64,000 nucleotides of DNA from Lentisphaera profundi (GTDB lineage: Bacteria > Verrucomicrobiota > Lentisphaeria > Lentisphaerales > Lentisphaeraceae), in contig NZ_CP117811.1 in assembly GCF_028728065.1 (NCBI RefSeq), positions 620,001 through 684,000 on the forward strand. Direction: 5' to 3'. The notes below the pieces were generated by a model that saw nothing but the letters and a program-made list of their open reading frames with translations, made no database searches and was not told where the DNA came from. Positions 27,362 to 56,500 of this stretch are shown piece by piece; position 1 is the stretch's first letter; every line of letters begins with the position of its first letter. A program made the position numbers and the translations under genes.

Positions 27362-28407
27362 CACGATTAACCAGTTAACGATGTATTAAGATATTTAACA
27401 GGTTTCTGTGATGTAGCCATAGCTTTAGATATTAAGCCAAAAAACATTTTCCTGAGGTCAAATCTTCTATTGAGCCTAAACTGTAAATCAGCAAGGTACC
27501 TGAAACCATATTTATCGAATTTTAAAGAGTGGAAAGTCCCCGAAATTGAGGTTTTGATGTTACTTAAAATTGTATTGACCCATTTAAAAGTACTTTCTAT
27601 TTCTTCTTTTTTTGCTTTACTAGCAACTAAAACGCTATGATTACTTACTTCTTTTAAGGCACTGAAACCTCTAAGTCCATCTGAAATTGTATCACAGTTC
27701 TCCTCAAGATTATCTATAGCCCATTGTTTAATAACTTCATAAGAAAAACCCGATACAGGACTCAGTTTAACAAAAACTGGATTCCGATTTTCGTTAGTTT
27801 CTACGGCAGCTATAAATGGAGACTTATTTTCTGAACCTCTACCTCGTTTACCTCCTTCCAGTCGACCGCCTAGGTAAGCATCGTCTATTTCAACCAAGCC
27901 TTTAAGTTTATACTTACTGTCCTGCTCATACATCATCTGCATAATTTCTGCTTTATTAACCAAGCAGTTTTATAGTTCACATCAATGTGACGGTGTAATT
28001 CTAATGCTGAAACACTGTTCTTTGATTGACTTATTTGATGGAGAGCTAAGAACCATTTCTGGAGGGGAACTTTCGTTCGATGAAATAAAGTACCCGCTGT
28101 TAAGCGATGGTTTTTACGGCAGGCTTTACATTGAAAGATTGTGCGGCTTCCTGATTTATAGCGATAATACTTATCACTATCGCATGTGTCACATTTAAAG
28201 CCATTAGGCCACTTACAGCTTTCCAGGTAAGCACTACATTGTTCTTCGGTTCCAAAAGTTTTGATGAATTCTGGAAAGCTAACTCCAACTTGAAACTGAA
28301 CTTTATTCTTAGGCATAATACATCTCCTTATTAGATGTAATTAATATGCTACTAAAAAATAGCTATATCAAGTTTTACACTCTTAACTGGTTAATCGTGA
28401 ATTCTTT
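27354..28407 (-). mobile_element. IS1595-like insertion sequence with 8-bp target duplication
   Basis: The element is 27362-28399 (1038 bp). Its inverted ends are CACGATTAACCAGTTAA at 27362-27378 and the complement at 28383-28399. The direct duplication AATTCTTT lies at 27354-27361 and 28400-28407; 8 bp is the usual size for IS1595. It carries a transposase split in two frames. It interrupts a small lipoprotein gene whose two halves flank it. Confidence 0.92.
27367..28316 (-). pseudogene. IS1595-family transposase, frameshifted
   Basis: The 5' part (27933-28316) has the zinc-ribbon of IS1595 transposases (CDTCDSDKYY...FQCKACRK) and the LHQISQSKNSVSALELHRH segment. It stops just after YKTAWLIKQKLCR. 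The 3' part (27367-27963) continues in the -1 frame from MQMMYEQD into the catalytic domain, with Asp in GLVEIDDAYLGG and ISDGLRGF and the WVNTILSNIKTSISGTFHS motif. The two overlap by 31 bases. A one-base loss near 27945-27950 (AAATTATGC on the minus strand) explains it. No canonical slippery heptamer is in the right frame, so inactivation is more likely than programmed frameshifting. Confidence 0.8.
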
Positions 28408-29805: not shown

Positions 29806-29872
29806 ACAGAACGACCGAGATTAGTGAGGTTTGAGCCTAAGCGAAAATCTTCACTGCAGCTCATGGTTAGCT
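29806..29872 (-). repeat. attC recombination site
   Basis: A 67-bp imperfect palindrome on the minus strand. R'' is AGCTAAC (29866-29872), followed by CATGAGCTGCAG; the left arm ends CTCGGTC and R' is GTTCTGT (29806-29812). The stop codon TAA of the upstream gene (29867-29869) lies inside R''. The same arms recur in the site at 30495-30560. Confidence 0.85.
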
Positions 29873-30223
29873 TTGGTTTTGATTTTGATTTTTCTTTTGA
29901 TTTATTATTTGAAAGATAGCCATTGTATTGATAGCCAAAAAAACTACATAATGGAAATAATAAAAAAGAGTCATTCCTGTTTTTATAATTAAGGAAATTG
30001 TTATTAAAGTTATTAGTGTGTTTCTTGTGATCTTGTTAAATTTCAAGGCTAAAAATAGAATTGTGATTGCGGATATAATAATTAATGAATCGTTACACCA
30101 ATCAATTATATTGTATGGAGGATGATGCATATGTCCCATCATGCACATATGCCATCTATCACATAGTTGCGAACTAATGGTGAACGTGATTGTAGAGAGT
30201 AAGAGTAATATGCTTTTTTTCAT
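29867..30223 (-). CDS. Small membrane protein, integron cassette gene
   Basis: The 118-residue protein has an N-terminal signal-like segment (MKKSILLLLSTITFTISSQ) and a His/Met-rich stretch (RWHMCMMGHMHHPPYN). Three hydrophobic helices follow and the tail is Asn/Gln/Lys-rich. The Met/His cluster could bind a metal such as copper, but that is speculation. No family is recognised. An R' box GTTAGCT lies directly upstream and an attC overlaps its stop, so it forms a complete cassette. Confidence 0.6.
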   Translation of the reverse strand: MKKSILLLLSTITFTISSQLCDRWHMCMMGHMHHPPYNIIDWCNDSLIIISAITILFLALKFNKITRNTLITLITISLIIKTGMTLFYYFHYVVFLAINTMAIFQIINQKKNQNQNQS

Positions 30224-30232
30224 TTTATTATT

Positions 30233-30494
30233 AGCTAACGTCTAAACTGAGTTTGTACTTTCTATTTAAATTGTGACTCATAACGAAAGTATCAACTCCA
30301 GTTACTGGTTCTGTATTTTTCTATTTTCTTTTAATTTTTTCATTTCTATAGGACTATTGCTGACTTCGCATTTGTCTGAGTTTGTGATCCAAGTCAGCTG
30401 CGTAATTCATGGTGATTTAAGAGGCTAAATACAGATTGATAATCGTATTTCGTTTTCTACTTCGTTTGCTTTAAAAATCTTTTTTATTATTCCT
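30233..30494 (-). other. Cassette-sized segment with no convincing gene
   Basis: Between R' of the attC at 30495 and the R' box GTTAGCT (30233-30239) lie about 260 bases. Only an 18-codon open frame is found. A GCTGACTT/AAGTCAGC stem with a 27-base loop starts near 30400. The piece may be a non-coding cassette or a long degenerate attC. Confidence 0.4.
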
Positions 30495-30560
30495 ACAGAA
30501 CGACCGAGATTAGGGATTTCGAGCGAAGCGAAGAAATTCCTCTGCAGCTCATGGTTAGGG
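30495..30560 (-). repeat. attC recombination site
   Basis: On the minus strand R'' is CCCTAAC (30554-30560), followed by CATGAGCTGCAG. The middle hairpin is TTTCTTCGCTTCGCTCGAAA, the left arm CTCGGTC, and R' GTTCTGT (30495-30501). It is 66 bp in length. It shares arms with the site at 29806-29872 and its centre with the isolated site at 49135-49200. Confidence 0.87.
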
Positions 30561-31115: not shown

Positions 31116-31640
31116 TCACGGACCGGCCGGTCGCTGCCGTACCTTCATTCCGACGGCAAAGCACACCCCCAAAAGCCCTGCCAGCAATGGTAGCGACGAT
31201 AAGCACAGGAAGATCCACTTAAAGAGTGTTGACTTGTCGTCGCCAGTATCGAAGGCGGGTATGACATAGACCCCATCGATAGGATATACCTGGATGCTCT
31301 GACCTTCGGAGATCCTCTCATAGACGATGCCTGTAACTCCCCTGGTAACAGGACCGATCGTAGCGACTTCCATATCTACCCAGTAGTCACGGTCTATCTT
31401 GGTTCGTTTCTTCACCCCAATTCCCGTGGTACGTTTGGTTTTCTCATATCGCTTGCGAACGACTTTGGCCTCCAGCGGGTCAATCTGGCCGGTTGCTACA
31501 ATCTTTTTTCGCGACGCCCATTTTTCCTGGTCCTCGGAGACGGTATTGAAGAAATCATATACCATGTATGCAATGATTGACCCCACGCAAATGAAAACGA
31601 GCGAGCCGAAAAGAAGAAAGTTACTCAGGTAATTCTTCAT
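31116..31640 (-). CDS. DUF3592-like membrane protein, first integron cassette
   Basis: The 174-residue protein has two membrane segments (about 8-30 and 138-162) around an extracytoplasmic beta-rich domain (ATGQIDPLEAKVVRKRYEKT...VYERISEGQSIQVYPIDG). The layout resembles DUF3592 proteins, and the function is unknown. Base composition is visibly richer in G and C than in neighbouring cassettes, which points to a different donor. As the attI-proximal cassette it should be the most recently captured and the best expressed. Confidence 0.7.
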   Translation of the reverse strand: MKNYLSNFLLFGSLVFICVGSIIAYMVYDFFNTVSEDQEKWASRKKIVATGQIDPLEAKVVRKRYEKTKRTTGIGVKKRTKIDRDYWVDMEVATIGPVTRGVTGIVYERISEGQSIQVYPIDGVYVIPAFDTGDDKSTLFKWIFLCLSSLPLLAGLLGVCFAVGMKVRQRPAGP

Positions 31641-32155
31641 TCTTTATCTAATCTTCTCGTTTTCTTGGTCAGTCCTGCACGCCAGCCCAATCGTTGCAGC
31701 ACGTTTACCCTCCGACTTCCCCATTTAAGCTTCGCTTGGTCTACAGTGGGCATATTTTCGTCCAACATGGTTATATGAGCCGGTCGTTTTATTCTGGGGG
31801 CCCAAGTTTTTGTTTAATTTTGATGTTGTTAAATGTAGGGTGGATTTAATGATTATAAACTCAAAGTTCAAATTTTTGTTTGTTGTGGGTACTTGTTATT
31901 ACGTCAAATAATGTCGTAAATCAAGGGTTATGATCCGGTTGTATAAGTCGGGGATTGTATTATTCGGGTCGATTTCTCAGGTTTTTGTTAATTTTCTATG
32001 AAGTCAAATAATGTCGTAAATCAGGGGTTATGAGCCGGTCACATAATACCGTTATTCGAGTCTTACATGCTATTTGATATTATATAAAAGCTAATAAATA
32101 CTTGTGATTATTGAGTTTTGGTCATTTAGTTCTTTAACGGAAAGAAAGAGGATTA
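31641..32155 (-). other. attI region with direct repeats, between the cassettes and intI
   Basis: This is non-coding. A perfect R' box GTTGGAC (minus strand, 31760-31766) marks the likely junction of attI with the first cassette. Two direct repeats share 18 identical bases (AATAATGTCGTAAATCAR) plus GGTTATGA-CCGGT, at about 31914-31950 and 32002-32038. A third partial copy of GGTTAT-GA-CCGGTC lies next to the junction at 31770-31787. Repeated integrase-binding sites are a known attI trait. A TATAAT on the minus strand (31852-31857) could belong to the cassette promoter, but no good -35 is seen. Confidence 0.7.
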
Positions 32156-32158
32156 GTG

Positions 32159-33433
32159 ATGTCGAACATGCAAATTTTTAAGAATTTTTTACTTAATCAA
32201 AAAGGGATTCATGAAAAGTACGTGGAGTACTATCTTAAGCGGGTAGCTCAATATAGTGAGTTCTGTCGAAGAAATGGTAGTGAACCTTATGATCAGATTA
32301 GTTTGAATGCTTACTTAAGAAGTTTGTTTGGCCGTGCTGAAGAGTGGCAAATCCAACAAGCCGAAGAGGCAGTGAAGTATTACTGGTATTGGCGCTCGGA
32401 AGGGAAATCGGAAGAAAGTTCTTGGCAGAGTAATGAAGAAATTCGTTTAGAAAAGCTTTCAGTAGCTTTTGATGTGGAAAAGGTCGAGTATTTAAATAAT
32501 TTTGAGAGAGCGTTGCGACTTCAGCAAAAATCACTAAGAACGATAAGGGCTTATGTTTCTTGGACGAAACGTTACTTAGCGCATAGTGCTGAGGGGTATC
32601 AGGAAACAGAAAAAGTGCGAGATTTCTTATCCTATTTAACACTGAGGCATAATGTTGCGGCGTCGACTCAGAATCAGGCTTTGTGTGCGTTGGTGTCATT
32701 GTTTAAATATGTGTTTCAAAAGGATCTAGGAGATATTAGCGGAAGTTTTCGTTCTAAAAAAAGTGAGCGCTTGCCAGTAGTGTTAGATATTGAAGAAGTG
32801 AGATGTTTGATTGATGCGACTCTCGGTCAAGAAAAACTAATGATGAAGTTGATTTATGGTGGCGGATTAAGGAAAAATGAATGCCTGCGTTTAAGGATAA
32901 AGGACATAGACTTTAAAAGAGGGGCGCTGAATATACGTGCAGGTAAAGGGGATAAAGATCGACAAACTTTGTTAAGCAAGAACTTGGAGAGTGAAATTAA
33001 CGTTCATATATGTGAAATAAGAAAACTTTATGAGAAAGACCGAAGCGAAGGTGTGGAAGGAGTTTACTTGCCGAATGCCTTAGTGAGGAAGTATCCGTCA
33101 GCAGCTAAGGAATGGAAGTGGTTTTGGTTGTTCCCTTCACCGATATTAAGTATTGATCCCATGTGCGAAGTTAAAACAATAAGAAGACATCATTTATCTG
33201 GTACGGGATTGAGTCGTGTGTTGAAAGCAAAGTGTCATGAACTTGGGATAAAAAAACGCTGTACAGTACATACTTTGAGGCATAGTTTTGCGACTCATCT
33301 TTTGGAGCGAGGGACGGACTTGAGGACGATTCAGGAATTACTTGGTCATGAGGATATAAGTACGACGCAAATTTATACGCATGTACTTAATTTGAATCAG
33401 TCGGGGACGCAAAGTCCTTTAGATGATTTATGA
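32159..33433 (+). CDS. intI: Integron integrase with N-terminal extension
   Basis: The 424-residue tyrosine recombinase has catalytic residues Arg238 ([12 protein letters not shown]), His371 and Arg374 ([12 protein letters not shown]), a His in LLGHEDIS and Tyr406 (IYTHVLN). The extra segment peculiar to IntI is present just before the second half ([19 protein letters not shown] and [14 protein letters not shown]), which separates it from XerC/XerD. The region [17 protein letters not shown]...[12 protein letters not shown] is also IntI-like. About 110 residues before it are additional compared with the roughly 330-residue standard. GTG 32156 precedes the ATG; AGAGGA fits the ATG at 32159. It is divergent from the cassette genes, as is usual. 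Confidence 0.95.
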
Positions 33434-47669: not shown

Positions 47670-48698
47670 TTACTTCTTCACTGGATAAGGAGGCGTTTTA
47701 ACTGGAGTTAACTGAAGGATGCTGTCACCTTTGTCAGACGACCCAGAGCGGAAGATTGCCAGGTAGAGTTTCCCCTCATTTTTAGTTAGGTAATAGGGAA
47801 CCATCCCCTTGGGGACCAGGCGACTGAGGTCTGTCCATTTCCCAGTAGCAAGATCTTCCAATTTTTTGAATCGGATGAATTTATGCTCATCCGGATCGGT
47901 TTTTCCGGCATGTGACTTCGTAAAAAAACTCGTTGCATACCAGTAGCCGTTAAAGTAATCGACATCGTTGAGAACAAGCCCTGTCTTCTTCCAGGAGCCA
48001 ACGTTTGCACTACGTTTCGTTGGATCAAAACTATCATAGATTTTGAATTTTCCAGTCTTCCAATCCACGATTTCCACGACACGCCCCTCCGCCGAGTTAA
48101 TCACATAAAGCTTGCCGTTCACAAAGGTCAGGCCTCTAGAATAACCCTTAACGGGCACCTTAAGTGCAGACTCATCTTTACCGATCGCCTTGAAGCGAAA
48201 AACATGCCCTGAATTGGGATTGATCGCATAGATCCAACCCGTCGCAGGGTCAAGCACGATATCGTGTGGGCGATTCAAAGCAACTCCAGCAATCTTTTTG
48301 GTTTCGGCGCTGATCTTTTTGCTTGAGAGACTCTTAAAGGCAATGATGCGATGGTTACCCGTATCGTTAGCGTAATAGAGCTTATCTGCGGGGTTGTAAA
48401 CAAGCGAGTGCTGAGCTTTTACCGGTACGGGCGAAATTTGAAAGGGGGCATCGGGACCTTTACGGTACATAAATCGGTTGTTTTCCAGGTCGGTCACAAT
48501 CTCTAAATTATCCCCAATAAAGGCGATATGGGTGGGTGTTTTGAATTTTATCGAATTACTTTTTGGGGCGTAAACAGTTACTTTTAAGCCCAAATCTACT
48601 TGATTGTTTGTCAGCTCCTTGCTGAAAAGTGACTGTGACGAGATGGCCATTACGATGAAGAGGAAGAGGAAGAGGAAGAACATCTTTTTTTTGTTCAT
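47670..48698 (-). CDS. Secreted NHL/beta-propeller protein
   Basis: From ATG 48698 the 342-residue protein has a long hydrophobic signal (MFFLFLFLFIVMAISSQSLFS). A beta-propeller of about six blades follows with NHL/SMP-30-like strands (LVYNPADKLYYANDTGNHRIIAF, PHDIVLDPATGWIYAINPNSGHVFRF, GLTFVNGKLYVINSAEGRVVEI). The ligand or substrate is unknown. Base composition is somewhat richer in G and C than its flanks. The gene begins exactly at the break of a truncated sulfatase (48700-48861), whose promoter it has probably taken over. The upstream in-frame start at 48812 lies in the sulfatase remnant. Confidence 0.75.
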   Translation of the reverse strand: MNKKKMFFLFLFLFIVMAISSQSLFSKELTNNQVDLGLKVTVYAPKSNSIKFKTPTHIAFIGDNLEIVTDLENNRFMYRKGPDAPFQISPVPVKAQHSLVYNPADKLYYANDTGNHRIIAFKSLSSKKISAETKKIAGVALNRPHDIVLDPATGWIYAINPNSGHVFRFKAIGKDESALKVPVKGYSRGLTFVNGKLYVINSAEGRVVEIVDWKTGKFKIYDSFDPTKRSANVGSWKKTGLVLNDVDYFNGYWYATSFFTKSHAGKTDPDEHKFIRFKKLEDLATGKWTDLSRLVPKGMVPYYLTKNEGKLYLAIFRSGSSDKGDSILQLTPVKTPPYPVKK

Positions 48699-48699
48699 T

Positions 48700-48861
48700 T
48701 TAAATTGTCCAGATGAATAATATTTTGGTGAACTCACTGCCGAATGCTGCAATATCCGTCCAGCCCATATCATCGACATTGATAAGTATGATATTGGGTT
48801 TCTGATTGGCAAATAGCTGAGTTGATAGAAACAGGATGAGACTTAGAAGGTATTTCATCAT
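48700..48861 (-). pseudogene. N-terminal remnant of a sulfatase gene
   Basis: The minus strand encodes a signal peptide (MMKYLLSLILFLSTQLFA) and then NQKPNIILINVDDMGWTDIAAFGSEF, the unmistakable start of an S1 sulfatase with the metal-binding Asp pair. After this the similarity ends abruptly (TKILFIWTI) and a TAA at 48700-48702 follows, one base before the ATG of the beta-propeller gene. The formylglycine motif and the rest are gone. Confidence 0.85.
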
Positions 48862-48984: not shown

Positions 48985-49110
48985 TTTCACCACCTCACGG
49001 CACAGTTTGCAGGCCAGGGGACGGAGTCCCAGAGCTTGTAATAGAAAACACAAGGGGAGATTTACCGCCTCACTCCAGCGGGGAGGTGTTGCCACACTGG
49101 CGGAAAAAAG
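48985..49110. repeat. Intergenic multi-hairpin element, reverse copy D1
   Basis: Read on the minus strand it has CCGCCAGTGTGGCAACACCTCCCCGCTGGAGTGAGGCGG-type (outer CCGCC/GGCGG) structure, then CCCCTTGTGTTTT, GGGACTCCGTCCC and CCTGCAAACTGTGCC. This is the same order as in the plus-strand copies at 49905-50350. Confidence 0.65.
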
Positions 49111-49134
49111 AGAATTGAGTTCATTTTATTTATT

Positions 49135-49200
49135 CTCTAGCATCTGGGCTTAGGGATTTCTGAGCGAAACGAAGAAATTCCTCTGTCTCCCTGGTTAAGA
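49135..49200 (-). repeat. Isolated attC site
   Basis: On the minus strand TCTTAAC (49194-49200) forms R'', then AGAGGAATTTCTTCG and TTTCGCTCAGAAATCCCTAA. This centre is nearly identical to that of the attC at 30495-30560. The far end is degenerate (R' GCTAGAG, 49135-49141). The TAA stop of the adjacent gene lies inside R'', as in the array. No integrase is nearby. Confidence 0.75.
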
Positions 49201-49626
49201 TTGTTTTTTATTTCGTATGATTATAAGTAAAGGCAACATTATATGACCTATTACACTTATTAAATATCTGCCCGAATTCATTATACCGTTTGGTTCTAAT
49301 GTATTTTTAATGTGTTTTTCTATAGCGATATCAAACATGATTTTTAGTGACATTACAGTTATATATACAAAGAATATTTTAATGAATATCTTTGGTTTGT
49401 TTAGGCATAATATTACAGTTAAGGCGATAATGACAACAACCCATTTGATGGGATATTCAATAGGTTCATAAAAGTCAACCAGCGGATTATTAGGGTGTTT
49501 TTCTATAGAAGTAATATAATGGTTGATATATTCTAGGCTAGGTATATCAAGACTCCAGCGCTCATAAATCTGCCACAGTTGATTTAGGATTACGACGCTA
49601 AAAATTAAAGTGATTTTTTTATTCAT
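49195..49626 (-). CDS. Membrane protein carried by a solitary integron cassette
   Basis: The 143-residue protein has three or four hydrophobic segments (about 3-16, 58-75, 80-100 and 118-138). No family is recognised. It is embedded in a complete cassette structure: an R' box GTTAGAT (perfect GTTRRRY; minus strand 49632-49638) six bases before the ATG and an attC overlapping its stop. Its AT-rich composition and small size match the cassettes of the main array. Confidence 0.6.
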   Translation of the reverse strand: MNKKITLIFSVVILNQLWQIYERWSLDIPSLEYINHYITSIEKHPNNPLVDFYEPIEYPIKWVVVIIALTVILCLNKPKIFIKIFFVYITVMSLKIMFDIAIEKHIKNTLEPNGIMNSGRYLISVIGHIMLPLLIIIRNKKQS

Positions 49627-49904
49627 TTTTTATCTAACGACGTGCTTAGATATGTATTGCTTGAAAGTGTTTTGAGTGCTAGACGATTTGATCCCATAAT
49701 TAACTCCCTAAATTAATTGAAGTTATTAGTGTATGGCAAAATGAATTTATATTCAAGAGGCAAGCATGAGAAAACAAAAAGCCCCAGCAGTTCTGCAGGG
49801 GCTTTGGGCAAGTGTATAAAATAACACGATGCTCCAGAAGAGAAGGCATGATGCTGCGCAGACGAGAGGAACGCTGTCTCCTCGAATTCCCCTTAAATCT
49901 TCCC

Positions 49905-50352
49905 TGCAGGTGTATCCGCCCGTAAGGCAATACCTCCCCGCTGGAGTGAGGCGGATTAATAAACATTTTTTACCTAAAGATAAGGGACTCCATCCCTGCA
50001 AGGTGTGCCCACCTTGAGAGGCGGATGAAAAGCATTTGCCCCTTGTGTTTTTATTACAAGTACAGGGACTCCGTCCCCATCCCTGCAAGGTGTGCCCACC
50101 TTGAGAGGCGGATAAAAAGAGAATTGAAAATCACCTATCCCCAATTTTTCCATCCGCCCGTATGGCAATACCTCCCCGCTGGAGTGAAGCGGTAAATATC
50201 CCCTTGTGTTTTTATTACAAGTACAGGGACTCCGTCCCCATCCCTGCAAGGTGTGCCCACCTTGAGAGGCGGATAAAAAGTGTTGCCTAGAAGCATTGGG
50301 ACTCCGTCCCCATCCCTGCAAGGTGTGCCCACCTTGAGAGGCGGATGAAAGA
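49905..50352. repeat. Tandem cluster of multi-hairpin elements (D2)
   Basis: Four copies of a roughly 50-bp unit lie at about 49983-50026, 50061-50113, 50222-50274 and 50297-50346. Each has the hairpin GGGACTCCRTCCC followed by CCTGCAAGGTGTGCCCACCTT (hairpin AAGGTG-TGCC-CACCTT) and GAGAGGCGGAT. Interspersed are two copies of a 40-bp unit with outer CCGCC/GGCGG and inner CTCCCCGCTGGAG (49917-49956 and 50154-50192). CCCCTTGTGTTTTTATTACAAGTA is also duplicated (50039, 50200). There is no gene in this 650-bp gap. Confidence 0.8.
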
Positions 50353-50365
50353 GCAGTGAATATTA

Positions 50366-51769
50366 TTACTTTTTCTTAATGTGCTTGGGACGGTCTTTGA
50401 AAGCGAGTTCTTTGTCGTAAATGACTCCTGGGCGAATGTCTTCATGGGCTTGCTCAGTAATGGCAATCATCTGTTTAAGAATGTCAGGATTACTTTTGGC
50501 GATATCATTTAATTCTTCAATATCTTTTGAGATATTGTAGAGTTCCCAAGAGGACTCTTTTCTTTTGCGATAAAGCTTCCAATCACCCATTCTGAGCGCT
50601 GTTTGCCTATAGTATTCCCAGTAGAGGTATTTGTGCTCTTCCTGTCCTTCTTTATTGAGGAGAGTTGGCAGAATAGAGAGGCCATCAGTTTTTGGTGAAT
50701 CAGTTTTTGCGATATCCGCTAAAGTGGGCATGATATCGGGAAAATAAAACATGTGGTCACTCATAGAGCCCGCTTTGATTTTTCCGGGCCAGCGTGCGTA
50801 CATGGGAATCTTGAGCCCACCATCATAAAGTGAGCCCTTGCCAGCACGAAAGCGCTCGCCGGTCTCTGGATTCAAGTTGGGTGCAAAGAAGCCATGGGGG
50901 TGCTCTTCATTTTTGAAATAAGGCTCACCACCATTATCACCACAGAGGAAAACGACGGTGTTGTCATCTATATCTAGCTCTTTGAGGAGGCTCATGATCT
51001 CGCCAAGTTGACGATCCACCATGTGCATAAAGGCGGCGTAGACTTTGGCATCAGTATCTTTACTCTGACCTGCAGACCAATTCTTATCTTTGAAGAGCTG
51101 CCAAGAGGGGTCATCTTTTTTAATTCCCCAGTGACCATGCGGAGGTGTCCAAGGAAGGTAGCAGAAGAAGGGAACATCCTTGTTTTTTTTGATGAACTTG
51201 ATGGATTGCTCGAAGATCTCATCTTGAGCATGGGTTTCGCCTTTGTAGCGATCTTGATTAGAATTGCCTTTGAGGGGGACTTCTTTGCCATTATGGATTA
51301 GGTATTCGGGGAAATATGTATGCGCATGCACTTGGTCGTAATAACCAAAAAATTCATCAAAACCATGTTTTTCAGGCACTCCGGAAGTTCCGCGAGCGCC
51401 AACGCCCCATTTGCCGAAGCCACCAGTGACATAGCCTTCTTTTTTGAGCATAGAACCCAAGGTGGGCTCAGCTTCTCGAATAGCGGAATAGCCATCATTG
51501 CTACGCATGGAAGTGTGTCCGGTATGAAGACCGGTTAGTAGTACGGCGCGGGTGGGCCCACAAGTTGGCGCTCCTGCATAAGCGTTGGTGAATTGCATGC
51601 CTTGAGTAGCAAACTTATCTATATTGGGGGTAATCAGATAATCATTCTTCATGTGGGAAGTCTCGAAGTAGCCCCATTCATCGAGCATGAGGTAAATGAT
51701 GTTGGGTTTCTTTTCGGCCATGGTGTTGAAGCCGATTAAGAAAAATATAATTAGCAGAGCTTTTTTCAT
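50366..51769 (-). CDS. Secreted sulfatase (Cys-type formylglycine motif)
   Basis: From the ATG at 51769 the 467-residue protein has a signal peptide (MKKALLIIFFLIGFNTMA). The formylglycine motif is at Cys70 (APTCGPTRAVLLTGLHTGH). The first metal site reads LMLDEWG, with Glu in place of the usual second Asp (Asp30-Glu31). The later metal site FLCGDNGGEPY is intact. HGFFAPNLNPETGERFRAGKGSLYDGGL is the usual active-site strand. The longer frame to 51916 runs through repeat DNA and is rejected. It lies alone between repeat clusters; the substrate is probably a sulfated marine glycan. Confidence 0.93.
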   Translation of the reverse strand: MKKALLIIFFLIGFNTMAEKKPNIIYLMLDEWGYFETSHMKNDYLITPNIDKFATQGMQFTNAYAGAPTCGPTRAVLLTGLHTGHTSMRSNDGYSAIREAEPTLGSMLKKEGYVTGGFGKWGVGARGTSGVPEKHGFDEFFGYYDQVHAHTYFPEYLIHNGKEVPLKGNSNQDRYKGETHAQDEIFEQSIKFIKKNKDVPFFCYLPWTPPHGHWGIKKDDPSWQLFKDKNWSAGQSKDTDAKVYAAFMHMVDRQLGEIMSLLKELDIDDNTVVFLCGDNGGEPYFKNEEHPHGFFAPNLNPETGERFRAGKGSLYDGGLKIPMYARWPGKIKAGSMSDHMFYFPDIMPTLADIAKTDSPKTDGLSILPTLLNKEGQEEHKYLYWEYYRQTALRMGDWKLYRKRKESSWELYNISKDIEELNDIAKSNPDILKQMIAITEQAHEDIRPGVIYDKELAFKDRPKHIKKK

Positions 51770-51803
51770 GGTGAGTTTTATCCTTTGATTTTGATCCTTA
51801 TTA

Positions 51804-51832
51804 ATTAAGTACTTGAGGGGTGGAAACTTAAG
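51804..51832 (-). promoter_or_regulatory. Variant of the GTTAA/CTTCTA motif before the sulfatase
   Basis: The minus strand reads CTTAAGTTTCC and, 23 bases from its first base, CTTAAT. Position and spacing agree with the motif before the other carbohydrate genes, but both boxes carry changes. It lies 35 bases before the start codon. Confidence 0.35.
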
Positions 51833-51859
51833 GTTTTTTATGCTCATATATACATTTTT

Positions 51860-51990
51860 ATCCCGCCCGCGGGGGCTCCCCGCTCGCCGAAGGCATTTGT
51901 ATCTGGTGCTTCGCACACGAGAGGACTCTGTCCTCTCGAGCTCTCCTGCAAGGACTTGCCAGTCCTGTACCAGGCGACTTTAGTGCTTCG
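51860..51990. repeat. Intergenic multi-hairpin element, copy C
   Basis: Hairpins in order are GCGGGGGCTCCCCGC, GTGCTTCGCAC, CGAGAGGAC-TCT-GTCCTCTCG and CCTGCAAGGACT-TGCC-AGTCCTG, and then another GTGCTTCGCAC. The third and fourth correspond to the two hairpins of cluster D2 with compensating stem changes. Confidence 0.7.
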
Positions 51991-52014: not shown

Positions 52015-55000
52015 TTATTTCCAACTTTTCATATAGGCTACAATATCGGCTACATCCTGTTCACTCAAGCCCAGTTGTTGCGCAGAGAGCATGAGAGACT
52101 GCTTCATGTGCAATTTTTTAGCAATACGTTCATGAGGAATAATTTGCTTCACCCCACCAGTGGAGACTAGGATCATCGGGTCGCCCATTGAGTCCGCAAT
52201 ACCTTGAACTTTCCCCCCGTCTTTCAGGAAGATTTCCATGCCTTTAAAGCCATGAGCAATGCCTGCTGATGGAGCGACAATGGCATTCACAGTAGCTTCG
52301 CGAGTTTGTTTGCTCGCCCAGCCCTTGAGTACAGGGCCATAGTTGGGTCCAATATCATTAATATTATGGCACATGGTGCAAGCCATGATTTTATTTTTAC
52401 CGCGCTCAACATCACCTTTGAGAGCTAAGATTTTTTGCTGATCCAGAGTTTTTATTTCCGGCTCTGCAGGGACAGTAATAGAATTAATGACGAGTTTTTC
52501 CGGATCATAAATACTTTTGACTTCTTCGGCAATATCAAGTTTTGACCAAGCAGTAAGACGGCGCATAAATATCCAGTGAGTCATATCTTCTTTCACAGGA
52601 CTTTCGACTTTGGCCAAATCTATAAGGGCAAGTGCGGCTTTTTTATCATTGATAAATGCCATAGATTCGACGGCAAACTTCCGCTCATTTTCTGATAGTT
52701 GATCACTCTTAATTCGTGAGATAAGATCATCAATCGCAAGGGGAGTACAGAAGCGCCAAGTCAAACGTGTAAATGCTGGGCTCCATTGGGTAGCCTTATC
52801 CTGCTGGAGATTTTCTTTGAGGTATTTCCAAAGGTCTGCTTCTTTATTAGTCGCACCAAGCCCAATAGCTTCGACATAATTTTTATCGTATTCGCTAGGC
52901 ATGCCTTGAACGAGATCAAGGAAAATAGAGGCCGTTTCCTGCGCTGAGTAATGTCTGAGTGAAAGGGCTACATCACGGCGAACAGCCGTGTTGGGATCCC
53001 TTGCCAATAACTTAGCGTAGGGAAGGATATTGACTTTGGCACGACGAAGTGCGCGGTAAGCGACGAGGCGTGTATTGGCTTTATTGTTTTTCAATAGAGT
53101 CAGGCAATGTTCCATACCCGTCTCACCGAGGTAAGGGAGGAGCCAGACTGCACGAGCGGCAATATAGGCATTTTTATGATCGAGAAGTTTTGCGACTTGC
53201 GCATACGCTTTTGGCCCAGCCTTTTTAAGTTCAGAGAAACCGAGGTAACGAACATTCACTGCGGGGCTTTTAAGTGCTTCGATTTGACCTGCGATTGTTT
53301 TTAAATTGAGCTTTGGGATAAGGGGCTTAAAGCCCTTTGGTGCAATTCTGTAGATCGCACCTGAAGCGGTGGGGTCCAAAGTGGCATGACCGCCTGAGCG
53401 CGCATCATACCAATCAGCAACATAAATGGCGCCATCGGGACCGATGCTGATATCGGAGGGACGGAACCAGAGCGAATGTTCAGTAGATTTTTTGCCATGA
53501 CTCGAGAGGAACTCAAAACGTTCCATTTTGTAGCTGGCGCCTTTTTGTTCAGGGAAATAGCCATAGATCATATTGCGAGTGGCTTCACAAGAGAGGTACA
53601 TGCCTTCGTACTTATCTCCAAGGGCACCATTTTCATAGAACACGACACCCGTGGGACCTCCTGCACCATAAACGTCTCCGGTATCAAAAGTTCCTGGGTT
53701 ATCTTGCCTCCAGTGAGCACGTGGGATGGATTGACCAGATCTTTTTGCGGCTTGCCATTTATACTGACCATCAAGAGAATAATAACCAGCAGATCCATAC
53801 TCAAGTACATAGGAGTTACGGCAACTGGAGTAATCATCATTATCACTTTGGAAGACTTCACCTAATGAGTTAATAGTTTGTTCGTAGCTATTGCGATAAC
53901 CATGACCAATGATTTCTACATCAGTTCCATCGGGATTCATTCTCACTGTGAAACCCGCACTCCAAACAAAGCCATCATCACTTTTTGCACCACCGAGTTC
54001 GTCGGTTGGGGTGTAGAAAAATTCTTTTTTGGTGCCTCCACGGTAGTTAGTATTCATACGGAATTCTTTGCCAGATTTATCGGTAAAAATCGCTCCGCAA
54101 TTCCCGCTATTGAAATACCATTTGCCATCAGGACCCGCAGTCAAAGAATGCAGGGAGTGATCGTGCTGACGTCCGTTGAACCCCGTGAGCAGAACTTCTC
54201 TCTTATCAATGCCTTCATCGAAGACAAGATTGCGGTTGATATCAGTTAAAACAATCAATTCTGGGGGTTGAGAAATAACAACTTTGTTGTCGAGAACGGC
54301 GATACCTAAGGGCGCAGAGAGATTGGGGTTTTGGTAGAAAGTGTGAGATTTATCTGCCTTGCCATCACCATTACTATCACGTAAAACAACAATACGATCA
54401 CCTTCTTTGCGGCGAGCCATATTTTCGCGTCGGTAGTTGACGCCCTCAGTTATCCAAATATTTCCCATGTGGTCAATATCCATATTAGTTGGATTGTAGA
54501 CTTGTGGCGAGACCGCCCAGCGGGTCACCTCTAATTCACCATCAGCTTTGAATAAATCCATCTCCATATCTTGAAGCATTGCAGGAGGCCAGGGGAAGGC
54601 TTCGTTAATACTTGTAGCAACTGCGAGTTTGACGGGTGCTTTTTTAGCTTTATTAGAACTCGAACTACTTTTTACTGGAGCTCTTGTTTTCTTGCGAGGG
54701 TCGATAGCTCTACCATCAGGCCCCAAGGGTAAAGGCTTGCCGGGTTCTTGTTCGAGAAGGCTAGCTGAGGGAAGTTCAATTTCTTCGGGGAAATCAGGAC
54801 GGTTGAGATTTTGATTGAGCATTGCTTTGCTAACTGTTTCGGACTCGACTCCATTTTTTGGTATTTCGACGCCTGCTACCCAGGCAATCGTATTGAGGAT
54901 GAGTTTACGGTAGCCGTCTATAGCCCAGTTATTGTGGTAATGACCACCGACAAAGCCTGCGCCACGTGCGCCATTTTTTTGAATATTACACCAGATTAAA

Positions 55001-55662
55001 GCTTGCTCCGTTCCTAATTTATCCGCGGCATTTTTGTTCCAAAATTTCCTGCTGCCATAGCGAATCATATTTTCTTTTGTGGGAGTTGCACCTGCAATCG
55101 TGTAGCATTCATTGCAATTTTTATCGAAGTTGAGATTCCAATAAAGCTCATCATAGACTTTGAGGGGGAGTTCGATTCCTCTAGAAACTGGGTGACCCGC
55201 CCTAGGCTGAATATCGGCAACCCAGGAAGGATTGATCGAGATCTCATCGTCAAAATAGCCACCGATCCATTTTTTATAGTATTTCTCGCCTGCTTCTTTA
55301 GTGGGGTGAACACCATAATGCATGAACATGATGCCCATGCCCGCTTTGATTTTCTTGTCGAGGAATTCGTGCTTTTCAGCGAGTTCACCACCATTATCTG
55401 CGTAGATAATGACAGCATCAATATTATCAAAAATACTTTCATCCTCGGGCCAACCGTACCAATGAACTTTGGCATTGATGCCAAGCTGACTCTTGTTCAG
55501 GGCCTCAGCTAGAAGCATCGAGCCCGCTTTATATTCGTGGTAACCGTGACGGTGCTTGGTATTGCCCGCAATAAAGAGGATGTTTTTTGTTTCCTTTGCG
55601 AGGAGCGCAAAAGATGGTGTAATTAAAAATAGCGCGAGGGCTATTTTGAGGAAGTAGGTCAT
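52015..55662 (-). CDS. ThuA / membrane-bound dehydrogenase / HEAT / cytochrome c fusion protein
   Basis: The 1215-residue exported protein has a signal peptide at 1-22 and a ThuA-like domain at about 25-275 (ILFIAGNTKHRHGYHEYKAG...GGHYHNNWAIDGYRKLILN). A low-complexity linker follows (SSSSNKAKKAPVKL). The PVC-type membrane-bound dehydrogenase beta-propeller is at about 360-780 (NPTNMDIDHMGNIWITEGVNYR; ISIGPDGAIYVADWYDARS). HEAT-like repeats run from about 790 to 1000. A C-terminal cytochrome c has heme motif CTMCH (KIMACTMCHNINDIGPNYGPVL). It is an electron-transferring periplasmic sugar oxidation protein by family expectation; the substrate is unknown. It follows the 55697-56500 gene by 34 bp. 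Confidence 0.9.
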   Translation of the reverse strand: MTYFLKIALALFLITPSFALLAKETKNILFIAGNTKHRHGYHEYKAGSMLLAEALNKSQLGINAKVHWYGWPEDESIFDNIDAVIIYADNGGELAEKHEFLDKKIKAGMGIMFMHYGVHPTKEAGEKYYKKWIGGYFDDEISINPSWVADIQPRAGHPVSRGIELPLKVYDELYWNLNFDKNCNECYTIAGATPTKENMIRYGSRKFWNKNAADKLGTEQALIWCNIQKNGARGAGFVGGHYHNNWAIDGYRKLILNTIAWVAGVEIPKNGVESETVSKAMLNQNLNRPDFPEEIELPSASLLEQEPGKPLPLGPDGRAIDPRKKTRAPVKSSSSSNKAKKAPVKLAVATSINEAFPWPPAMLQDMEMDLFKADGELEVTRWAVSPQVYNPTNMDIDHMGNIWITEGVNYRRENMARRKEGDRIVVLRDSNGDGKADKSHTFYQNPNLSAPLGIAVLDNKVVISQPPELIVLTDINRNLVFDEGIDKREVLLTGFNGRQHDHSLHSLTAGPDGKWYFNSGNCGAIFTDKSGKEFRMNTNYRGGTKKEFFYTPTDELGGAKSDDGFVWSAGFTVRMNPDGTDVEIIGHGYRNSYEQTINSLGEVFQSDNDDYSSCRNSYVLEYGSAGYYSLDGQYKWQAAKRSGQSIPRAHWRQDNPGTFDTGDVYGAGGPTGVVFYENGALGDKYEGMYLSCEATRNMIYGYFPEQKGASYKMERFEFLSSHGKKSTEHSLWFRPSDISIGPDGAIYVADWYDARSGGHATLDPTASGAIYRIAPKGFKPLIPKLNLKTIAGQIEALKSPAVNVRYLGFSELKKAGPKAYAQVAKLLDHKNAYIAARAVWLLPYLGETGMEHCLTLLKNNKANTRLVAYRALRRAKVNILPYAKLLARDPNTAVRRDVALSLRHYSAQETASIFLDLVQGMPSEYDKNYVEAIGLGATNKEADLWKYLKENLQQDKATQWSPAFTRLTWRFCTPLAIDDLISRIKSDQLSENERKFAVESMAFINDKKAALALIDLAKVESPVKEDMTHWIFMRRLTAWSKLDIAEEVKSIYDPEKLVINSITVPAEPEIKTLDQQKILALKGDVERGKNKIMACTMCHNINDIGPNYGPVLKGWASKQTREATVNAIVAPSAGIAHGFKGMEIFLKDGGKVQGIADSMGDPMILVSTGGVKQIIPHERIAKKLHMKQSLMLSAQQLGLSEQDVADIVAYMKSWK

Positions 55663-55696: not shown

Positions 55697-56500
55697 TTAG
55701 ATATATATGAGTTTTCTCGACTTAGTGGTCTTTGGACTTGGCGAAGCCTGTTTTTTAAGGGCCTCTTTCTCGGTTTTTATTTGTTTTTGAGGGCTAGTTG
55801 ATTGAACAATAGTATTTTTTCCAGCTTCGGATCGAGTAGAATCCAGGCGAGTGTATGCACTTATTTTCTCGTTCAAATTATTTGTCGGGCCTTTGACAGA
55901 TTTAAGGACAACCTTGTCTAAATAAATTTTATTGATTCCTGAGCCCGTGATTTTGAAGCCACCATAAATTTCGGGGTTCTCTCCAATGGATTTAAGGAAT
56001 AGTGGAGTAGAGTTATTTATCTTTATGAGGTACTGATTATTAATGCTTTCAATTCTGATTTTATTCCATCTGAATGTGTTGAGCTGTTTAGCGATTTCGT
56101 GATCAATACTCTTGATTTTGCCATTGATGTTCTCATCTCGACGGAAGTGTAAAGACCCATTTTCAAAATAAACTTTGGCGTAGTTTCTTCCGAGGTGGAA
56201 CTCGAAAAACTCTGGCGTAACATCAAATTTGAAGGCGAATTCTAAGAGCAGTCCATTGTGTGGGTTTGGTGTCCAAAAAGACAATAAGTGCTGAACTTTA
56301 GTCGAGCTTACATCTTTGGGTGAACCAATATATTCGCCTTTGATGACGCTCCAATTCATAGTTTTAGGGGGACGGATTCTGTTATTGATGGACTCGTGGT
56401 CAAAGCTTTCATTCATATAATCGGCTTTTGGAGTCACAAGAAGCTCTTCGGCGCTGAGAGGTATAAGTAGGCAGATGACTAGGGCGAATAGGTATTTCAT
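55697..56500 (-). CDS. Secreted laminin-G/concanavalin-like protein of unknown function
   Basis: The 267-residue protein has a signal peptide (MKYLFALVICLLIPLSA). A beta-sandwich-like domain at about 25-205 (WSVIKGEYIGSPKDVSSTKVQHLLSFW, FAFKFDVTPEFFEFHLGRN, WNKIRIESINNQYLIKIN) resembles the DUF1080/LamG group. The tail is low-complexity and Lys/Thr/Ser-rich. It is the first gene of an operon with the ThuA-dehydrogenase fusion and carries the GTTAA/CTTCTA motif upstream. A glycan-binding role is plausible but unproven. Confidence 0.7.
   Translation of the reverse strand: MKYLFALVICLLIPLSAEELLVTPKADYMNESFDHESINNRIRPPKTMNWSVIKGEYIGSPKDVSSTKVQHLLSFWTPNPHNGLLLEFAFKFDVTPEFFEFHLGRNYAKVYFENGSLHFRRDENINGKIKSIDHEIAKQLNTFRWNKIRIESINNQYLIKINNSTPLFLKSIGENPEIYGGFKITGSGINKIYLDKVVLKSVKGPTNNLNEKISAYTRLDSTRSEAGKNTIVQSTSPQKQIKTEKEALKKQASPSPKTTKSRKLIYI

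Follow-up and report, generated by a model that had tools for sequence, protein, structure and literature searches.

A solitary integron gene cassette between two sulfatase genes in Lentisphaera profundi

The stretch of Lentisphaera profundi DNA analysed here (64,000 nucleotides, referred to below as the window) contains, at positions 49135-49638 on the minus strand, a complete and genuine integron gene cassette. Integron gene cassettes are small mobile gene packets that usually occur in long arrays, whereas this one lies alone between two unrelated genes, 15.7 kb from an integron integrase gene. Its anatomy, the way in which its fold depends on joining its own two ends, and the cassette-free state of the corresponding locus in a congener together indicate that the cassette integrated outside any integron, and it was probably the integron integrase IntI that put it there, at a secondary (attG-type) site.

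Anatomy of the cassette and its attC site

Read in the direction of the gene, the sequence passes from ...AAGCACGTC into the left R' core site GTTAGAT (49638-49632), a spacer of AAAAA, the ATG at 49626 and a 143-codon ORF (49195-49626) that encodes a hydrophobic membrane protein of 143 aa. The TAA of this ORF falls within ATCTTAACC, after which come CAGGGAGACAGAGGAATTTCTTCGTTTCGCTCAGAAATCCCTAAGCCCAGAT and GCTAGAG, the last ending at 49135. GTTAGAT fits the R' consensus GTTRRRY and stands directly before the ORF, i.e., the ATG follows five bases on. The attC site (49135-49200, minus strand) is made up of R'' (AT)CTTAAC, inside which the TAA sits, L'' CAGGGAG, the core AGAGGAATTTCTTCG/TTTCGCTCAGAAATCCCT, L' AAGCCCAGAT and a right R' that reads GCTAGAG. 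The expected crossover, read from the sequence, is between G 49638 and T 49637, and the cassette as recombined, with its ends set by R' and the attC, would span 49141-49637 (497 bp, starting with TTAGAT and ending with the G that precedes CTAGAG). An earlier note on this DNA had described the site in largely the same terms, and both its R' box and its overlap of attC and stop were borne out; the gap to the ATG had been given as six bases rather than five, and the right-hand R' needed correction, being GCTAGAG and not a GTT box.

The attC belongs to the resident family. When the 66-bp site was compared with the whole genome by DNA search (5.46 Mb, two contigs), 32 matches were retrieved, the core agreeing with array cores at 33/34 positions (97%, E 1.2e-9 genome-wide), and the strong matches lie nearly all in the arrays at C1 1893-1914 kb and 2782-2808 kb and in the window's own array. 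The resemblance to the array site at 30495-30560 (minus strand) that the earlier note had pointed out is real, but the same core is common to about 25 attC sites across three integrons, not to that site alone. A covariance model (R2) trained without the present site returned 95 matches in a scan of the genome, and this site scored 38.1 bits (E 2.5e-4 genome-wide, 5.46 Mb; E 2.9e-6 when only the window is scanned). The R2 scan also places two further attC sites in the window's array, one of the other core type (29806-29872, minus strand) and a weaker match (30233-30314, minus strand, 24.3 bits, E 0.0039). An Rfam search gave nothing above threshold. Across the family, 91% of cells are paired and two-sided changes number 240 against a shuffle mean of 72, a covariation signal that is destroyed by a slide of one column. 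The L box here is GGG/CCC, the array consensus being GAG/CTC; the central L-box pair has changed from A-U to G-C, on both sides, in 11/91 sites, and an attC of the GGG/CCC type is present in the congener (genome G002). The similarity could in principle have belonged to a genome-wide repeat unrelated to cassettes, as the earlier note allowed; the repeat turned out to be the attC repeat within cassette arrays.

The two ends of the cassette also belong together. In the arrays, R'' is the exact complement of the same cassette's left R' in 44/62 neighbouring pairs, and many of the exceptions span long gaps, in which an undetected site probably lies between. Here R'' is ATCTTAAC, which is the expected ATCTAAC, complement of GTTAGAT, plus one extra T. 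When the bottom strand of the attC is folded in situ, a check that the earlier note had proposed, neither the R box nor the L box forms and there is no attC fold. When the last six bases are swapped for the cassette's own TTAGAT, as in the circular form, the R box, the L box and the core are all restored, at -5.1 kcal/mol vs -6.5 for the array consensus. A fold restored solely by joining the cassette's own ends is the mark of a once-circular cassette that later became integrated; the right R' was taken from the DNA that happened to adjoin on the right.

That all of this is a chance resemblance, an intergenic hairpin repeat beside an orphan gene and no cassette, is scarcely credible. The site in situ does fold no better than shuffles, and other intergenic repeats abound at the locus. 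However, a canonical array attC has equally unremarkable fold z-scores, being also no better than shuffles, and the fold-energy z-score was dropped as an attC test for that reason. Moreover, the model match, the core identity, the R''/R' complementarity, the stop inside R'' and the start five bases past R' all agree.

The sulfatase locus and the flanks of the cassette

The conserved left-hand neighbour of the insertion is a sulfatase gene (sulfatase A, 50366-51916, minus strand), and to the right lies a 53-aa N-terminal remnant of a second one (sulfatase B, 48698-48859, minus strand), truncated by comparison with its G002 counterpart (C48:12437). The upstream genes at 55697-56500 and 52015-55662 and sulfatase A keep their order in contig 48 of G002, with protein identities of 46%, 82% and 78%, respectively. 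There, sulfatase A is followed by an intact sulfatase B 327 bp away with no cassette between them; in the window, 1.5 kb separates sulfatase A from the sulfatase B remnant, an interval holding repeats, a 240-bp stretch, the cassette and another repeat copy. The 240-bp stretch to the left of the cassette (a terminator-like hairpin, promoter-like sequence and a leader ORF) is absent from the congener, which means that the inserted or rearranged segment may exceed the cassette. To the right, native sequence with homology to G002 begins again some 45 bp from the cassette, the repeat copy being left out.

The cassette gene was found at this locus in neither G002 nor G004, and the suggestion that it might stand here in all relatives without an attC therefore failed. 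The earlier note had asked for an empty site in related genomes, and G002 supplies the same two-sulfatase locus without the cassette, although at about 80% protein identity and with many repeats it is too diverged for a comparison exact to the base. When contigs were searched more widely for a locus closer to this one, only distant Verrucomicrobiota-type homologues were retrieved. The intergenic repeats at 48999-49112 and 49914-50352 belong to a family (CCGCC...CTCCCCGCTGGAGTGAGGCGG...GGGACTCCGTCCCC) that is represented about 50 times in the genome; one lies on each side of the cassette, the two being oppositely oriented, and a 24-bp direct repeat, AAAAAGAATTGAGTTCATTTTTTT (92%), flanks the right-hand copy.

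According to the explanation that we favour, the cassette would have arrived as a circle, the bottom strand of its attC being folded by pairing of R'' with the cassette's own R' and of L'' with L', and a resident IntI would have recombined this circle into a site between the two sulfatase genes that is neither attC nor attI. Such an event would leave the junctions G|TTAGAT on the left and G|CTAGAG on the right. Either one cassette would have been inserted, or a second would have followed and later been lost save for its first bases. As the pairing of R'' with the right R' would be broken, the cassette would then be hard to excise. What is observed is the anatomy of the cassette, its place in the resident attC family, the cassette-free congener locus and the complementarity of R'' and R' from end to end; that IntI was the agent, acting in a single step at this spot, is what we infer.

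The left flank (49639-49760, minus strand) carries a possible promoter, TTGAAT-N17-TACACT (by eye), an RBS, GGGAG, and the 24-codon leader ORF. It resembles neither type of recombination site. A covariance-model scan for attC with filters off gave 8.6 bits (E 0.3) for a trivial hairpin, with a shuffle p of 0.5 and 4-7% of genomic controls as good, and for attI no match was found beyond intergenic repeats in a comparison that included the integrase regions of three genomes. An apparent agreement by eye with the rest of a preceding attC (18/21 bases, p 0.0016 vs random DNA) was dropped, as 4% of genomic controls, and 7% over 32 nt, equal it. When the two flanks are joined, the reconstructed target is ACGTCG|CTAGAG, and the cassette-free allele would read ...CATATCTAAGCACGTCG|CTAGAGAATAAATAAAATG...; the triplet at the crossover, GCT, fits the secondary-site motif of IntI1, 5'-GNT-3', the second base of which is lax (PMC10127599). 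After a secondary-site event, a cassette retains just one recombination site and its excision is unlikely (PMC2426708), which fits the state of the present cassette.

The left promoter-like sequence and leader ORF do, by eye, recall an attI region, and the cassette could on that account be the relic of a lost fourth integron platform, with the left flank as its old attI and the integrase gene gone. We consider this very unlikely, given the outcome of the attI comparison, a search for an integrase relic nearby that found none, and a congener without an integron at the locus.

The right junction and flank (49120-49141, minus strand; GCTAGAGAATAAATAAAATGAA) look like the start of a second cassette, with an A-rich leader and an ATG. 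The A-richness of AATAAATAAAATGAA has a log-odds of 8.7, the median for array leaders being 6.8, and the ATG stands 10 nt past R', a position as in array genes. Only 0.06% of intergenic 24-mers match this score with an ATG 8-18 nt on, a figure that is optimistic because the feature was chosen post hoc. The right R' GCTAGAG is, in addition, one transition away from GTTAGAG, which is seen in arrays. In this respect the right flank speaks for an array remnant rather than for a single insertion. It is accordingly possible, if somewhat unlikely, that we are looking at the last piece of a small array that was moved by rearrangement or was once longer, with one full cassette and the first bases of the next, the neighbouring cassettes having been deleted and intergenic repeats standing in their place. 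The genome does contain decayed arrays that lack an integrase (9 attCs at C1:597.6-606.9 kb, of which one has the R' GCTATAA, and pairs on C2), and the repeats on either side and the truncated sulfatase B mark the locus as rearranged. Nevertheless, nothing attC-like beyond chance lies on the left, there is no other attC within 18 kb on that side or elsewhere in the rest of the window, and the second-cassette-like leader gives way to conserved native sequence within about 45 bp on the right. The array would itself also have needed to reach the locus, as the congener has none there.

Integrons of the genome and the source of the cassette

The integrase of the window (TIGR02249, 364 bits against a cut-off of 265) is encoded at 32144-33433 on the plus strand and is one of four full-length IntI genes in the genome. 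There are three separate integron platforms, all on C1 (C1:221, C1:652144 and C1:1889559), two arrays being long (1893-1915 kb; 2782-2808 kb) and the one in the window short (28-31.6 kb). Between intI and the first cassette of the latter (31640-32143), three copies of GGNTCAT(AT)AACC were noticed by eye and are possibly attI direct repeats; at the far end of the short array (27933-28316) lies an N-terminal fragment of an IS1595-type transposase. In a related species, L. araneosa, an integron has been listed as well (PMC3108266).

Tandem pairs of integron integrase genes occur at three loci in two genomes, namely at C1:1889559-1890797/1890850-1892037 in the present genome (G000; L011:3557-4798/4848-6038, minus strand) and at C47:7888-10089 (L060) and C10:162584-165247 (L082) in G002. 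The second member of the pair is without the catalytic His of HxxR (DSLRHS or ASFRDS) and without the GKG lysine region, and it retains both Arg positions, the H/W position and the Tyr. It is thus a conserved IntI, probably altered or inactive, next to a canonical one.

On the second replicon, C2, no integrase relative was found, and attCs are present there at three loci (C2:245352, C2:1451146/1451849 and C2:2237485/2238228). The decayed array at C1:597612-606949 (L075), 45 kb from the window's intI, has about nine attCs and no adjacent integrase; its R' boxes are mutated, with a GCT R' at C1:606072. A further off-platform attC lies at C1:1359486. The lone cassette is one of several such off-platform attC loci, and it is the one with both ends recognisable.

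The earlier note had proposed a cassette from the nearby array, inserted off target, or else the leftover of an older array. That the cassette is off-platform holds, and both routes still stand, insertion as the probable one and a leftover as a possible, somewhat doubtful one; its origin in the nearby array specifically is not supported. The core type occurs in all three arrays, at about 25 sites, and L'' and L' differ from the boxes of the nearby array and match those of no other array either; the nearby array is one of three possible sources. The cassette gene, too, is without a relative in the array loci.

The cassette gene, known parallels and significance

The cassette protein (143 aa) has a GRAVY of 0.48 and several hydrophobic stretches. 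It retrieved no Pfam or NCBIfam match, no relative at E <= 1e-4 in 387 other genomes of the phylum, and none in plasmids or viral contigs; the array cassette gene at 29867-30223 was considered as a paralogue because of its similar look and rejected because homology is absent. The GC content of the gene is 0.29, its neighbours having 0.45 and most array cassettes 0.28-0.33. The 24-codon leader ORF, for whose peptide no relative was found, has an RBS, and its TGA overlaps the ATG of the cassette gene, so that translational coupling from the leader to the cassette gene is possible. With this arrangement, the promoter-like sequence in the flank may drive expression of the gene by way of the short leader. 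A bolder version seems to us unlikely, namely that a natural attG insertion placed the cassette where a short native leader ORF ends, that a host promoter together with translational coupling activates the orphan gene, and that the several integrases of the lineage spread cassettes to both replicons; were it true, R' would restore the last codons of the leader, with the stop overlapping the cassette start.

The present cassette resembles those of sedentary chromosomal integrons in its R', its single ORF, the attC over the stop, the short A-rich leader, the low GC and the orphan gene, and differs from them in lying outside an array, in its GGG/CCC L boxes and in its GCT right R'. With secondary-site or attG cassettes it has in common that one cassette stands by itself with one attC, with what would be precise G| junctions in non-att DNA, and with GNT at the reconstructed target. 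Unlike the known cases, which are IntI1 insertions on plasmids or in the laboratory, it is old enough for its attC to have diverged, it belongs to a distant phylum, and the empty site could be compared in a congener but not to the base. Most demonstrations of off-target cassette insertion have involved the class 1 integrase (IntI1), in laboratory strains and on plasmids, and Loot et al. in 2024 reportedly described cassettes at attG sites. It also resembles a CALIN (a cluster of attC sites lacking an integrase) in having an attC without an adjacent integrase gene, but it has one attC where the default threshold is two and does not qualify as such, the next attCs being about 18.6 kb off, in the array of the platform. 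Both CALINs and lone cassettes have been described before, and this lone cassette is a good example of known off-target insertion or of a leftover, not of a new kind. A cassette at a secondary site is cited in a passage of PMC10127599 (aadB in RSF1010), and single-attC CALINs can be real according to the authors of IntegronFinder 2.0 (PMC9024848).

Natural cases fixed in a chromosome of another phylum, with readable junctions, make it possible to ask which targets other integrases choose and whether off-target cassettes come to be expressed and retained. For such a comparison the genome holds a single lone cassette whose two ends can both be recognised, together with several decayed cassettes spread over the two replicons.
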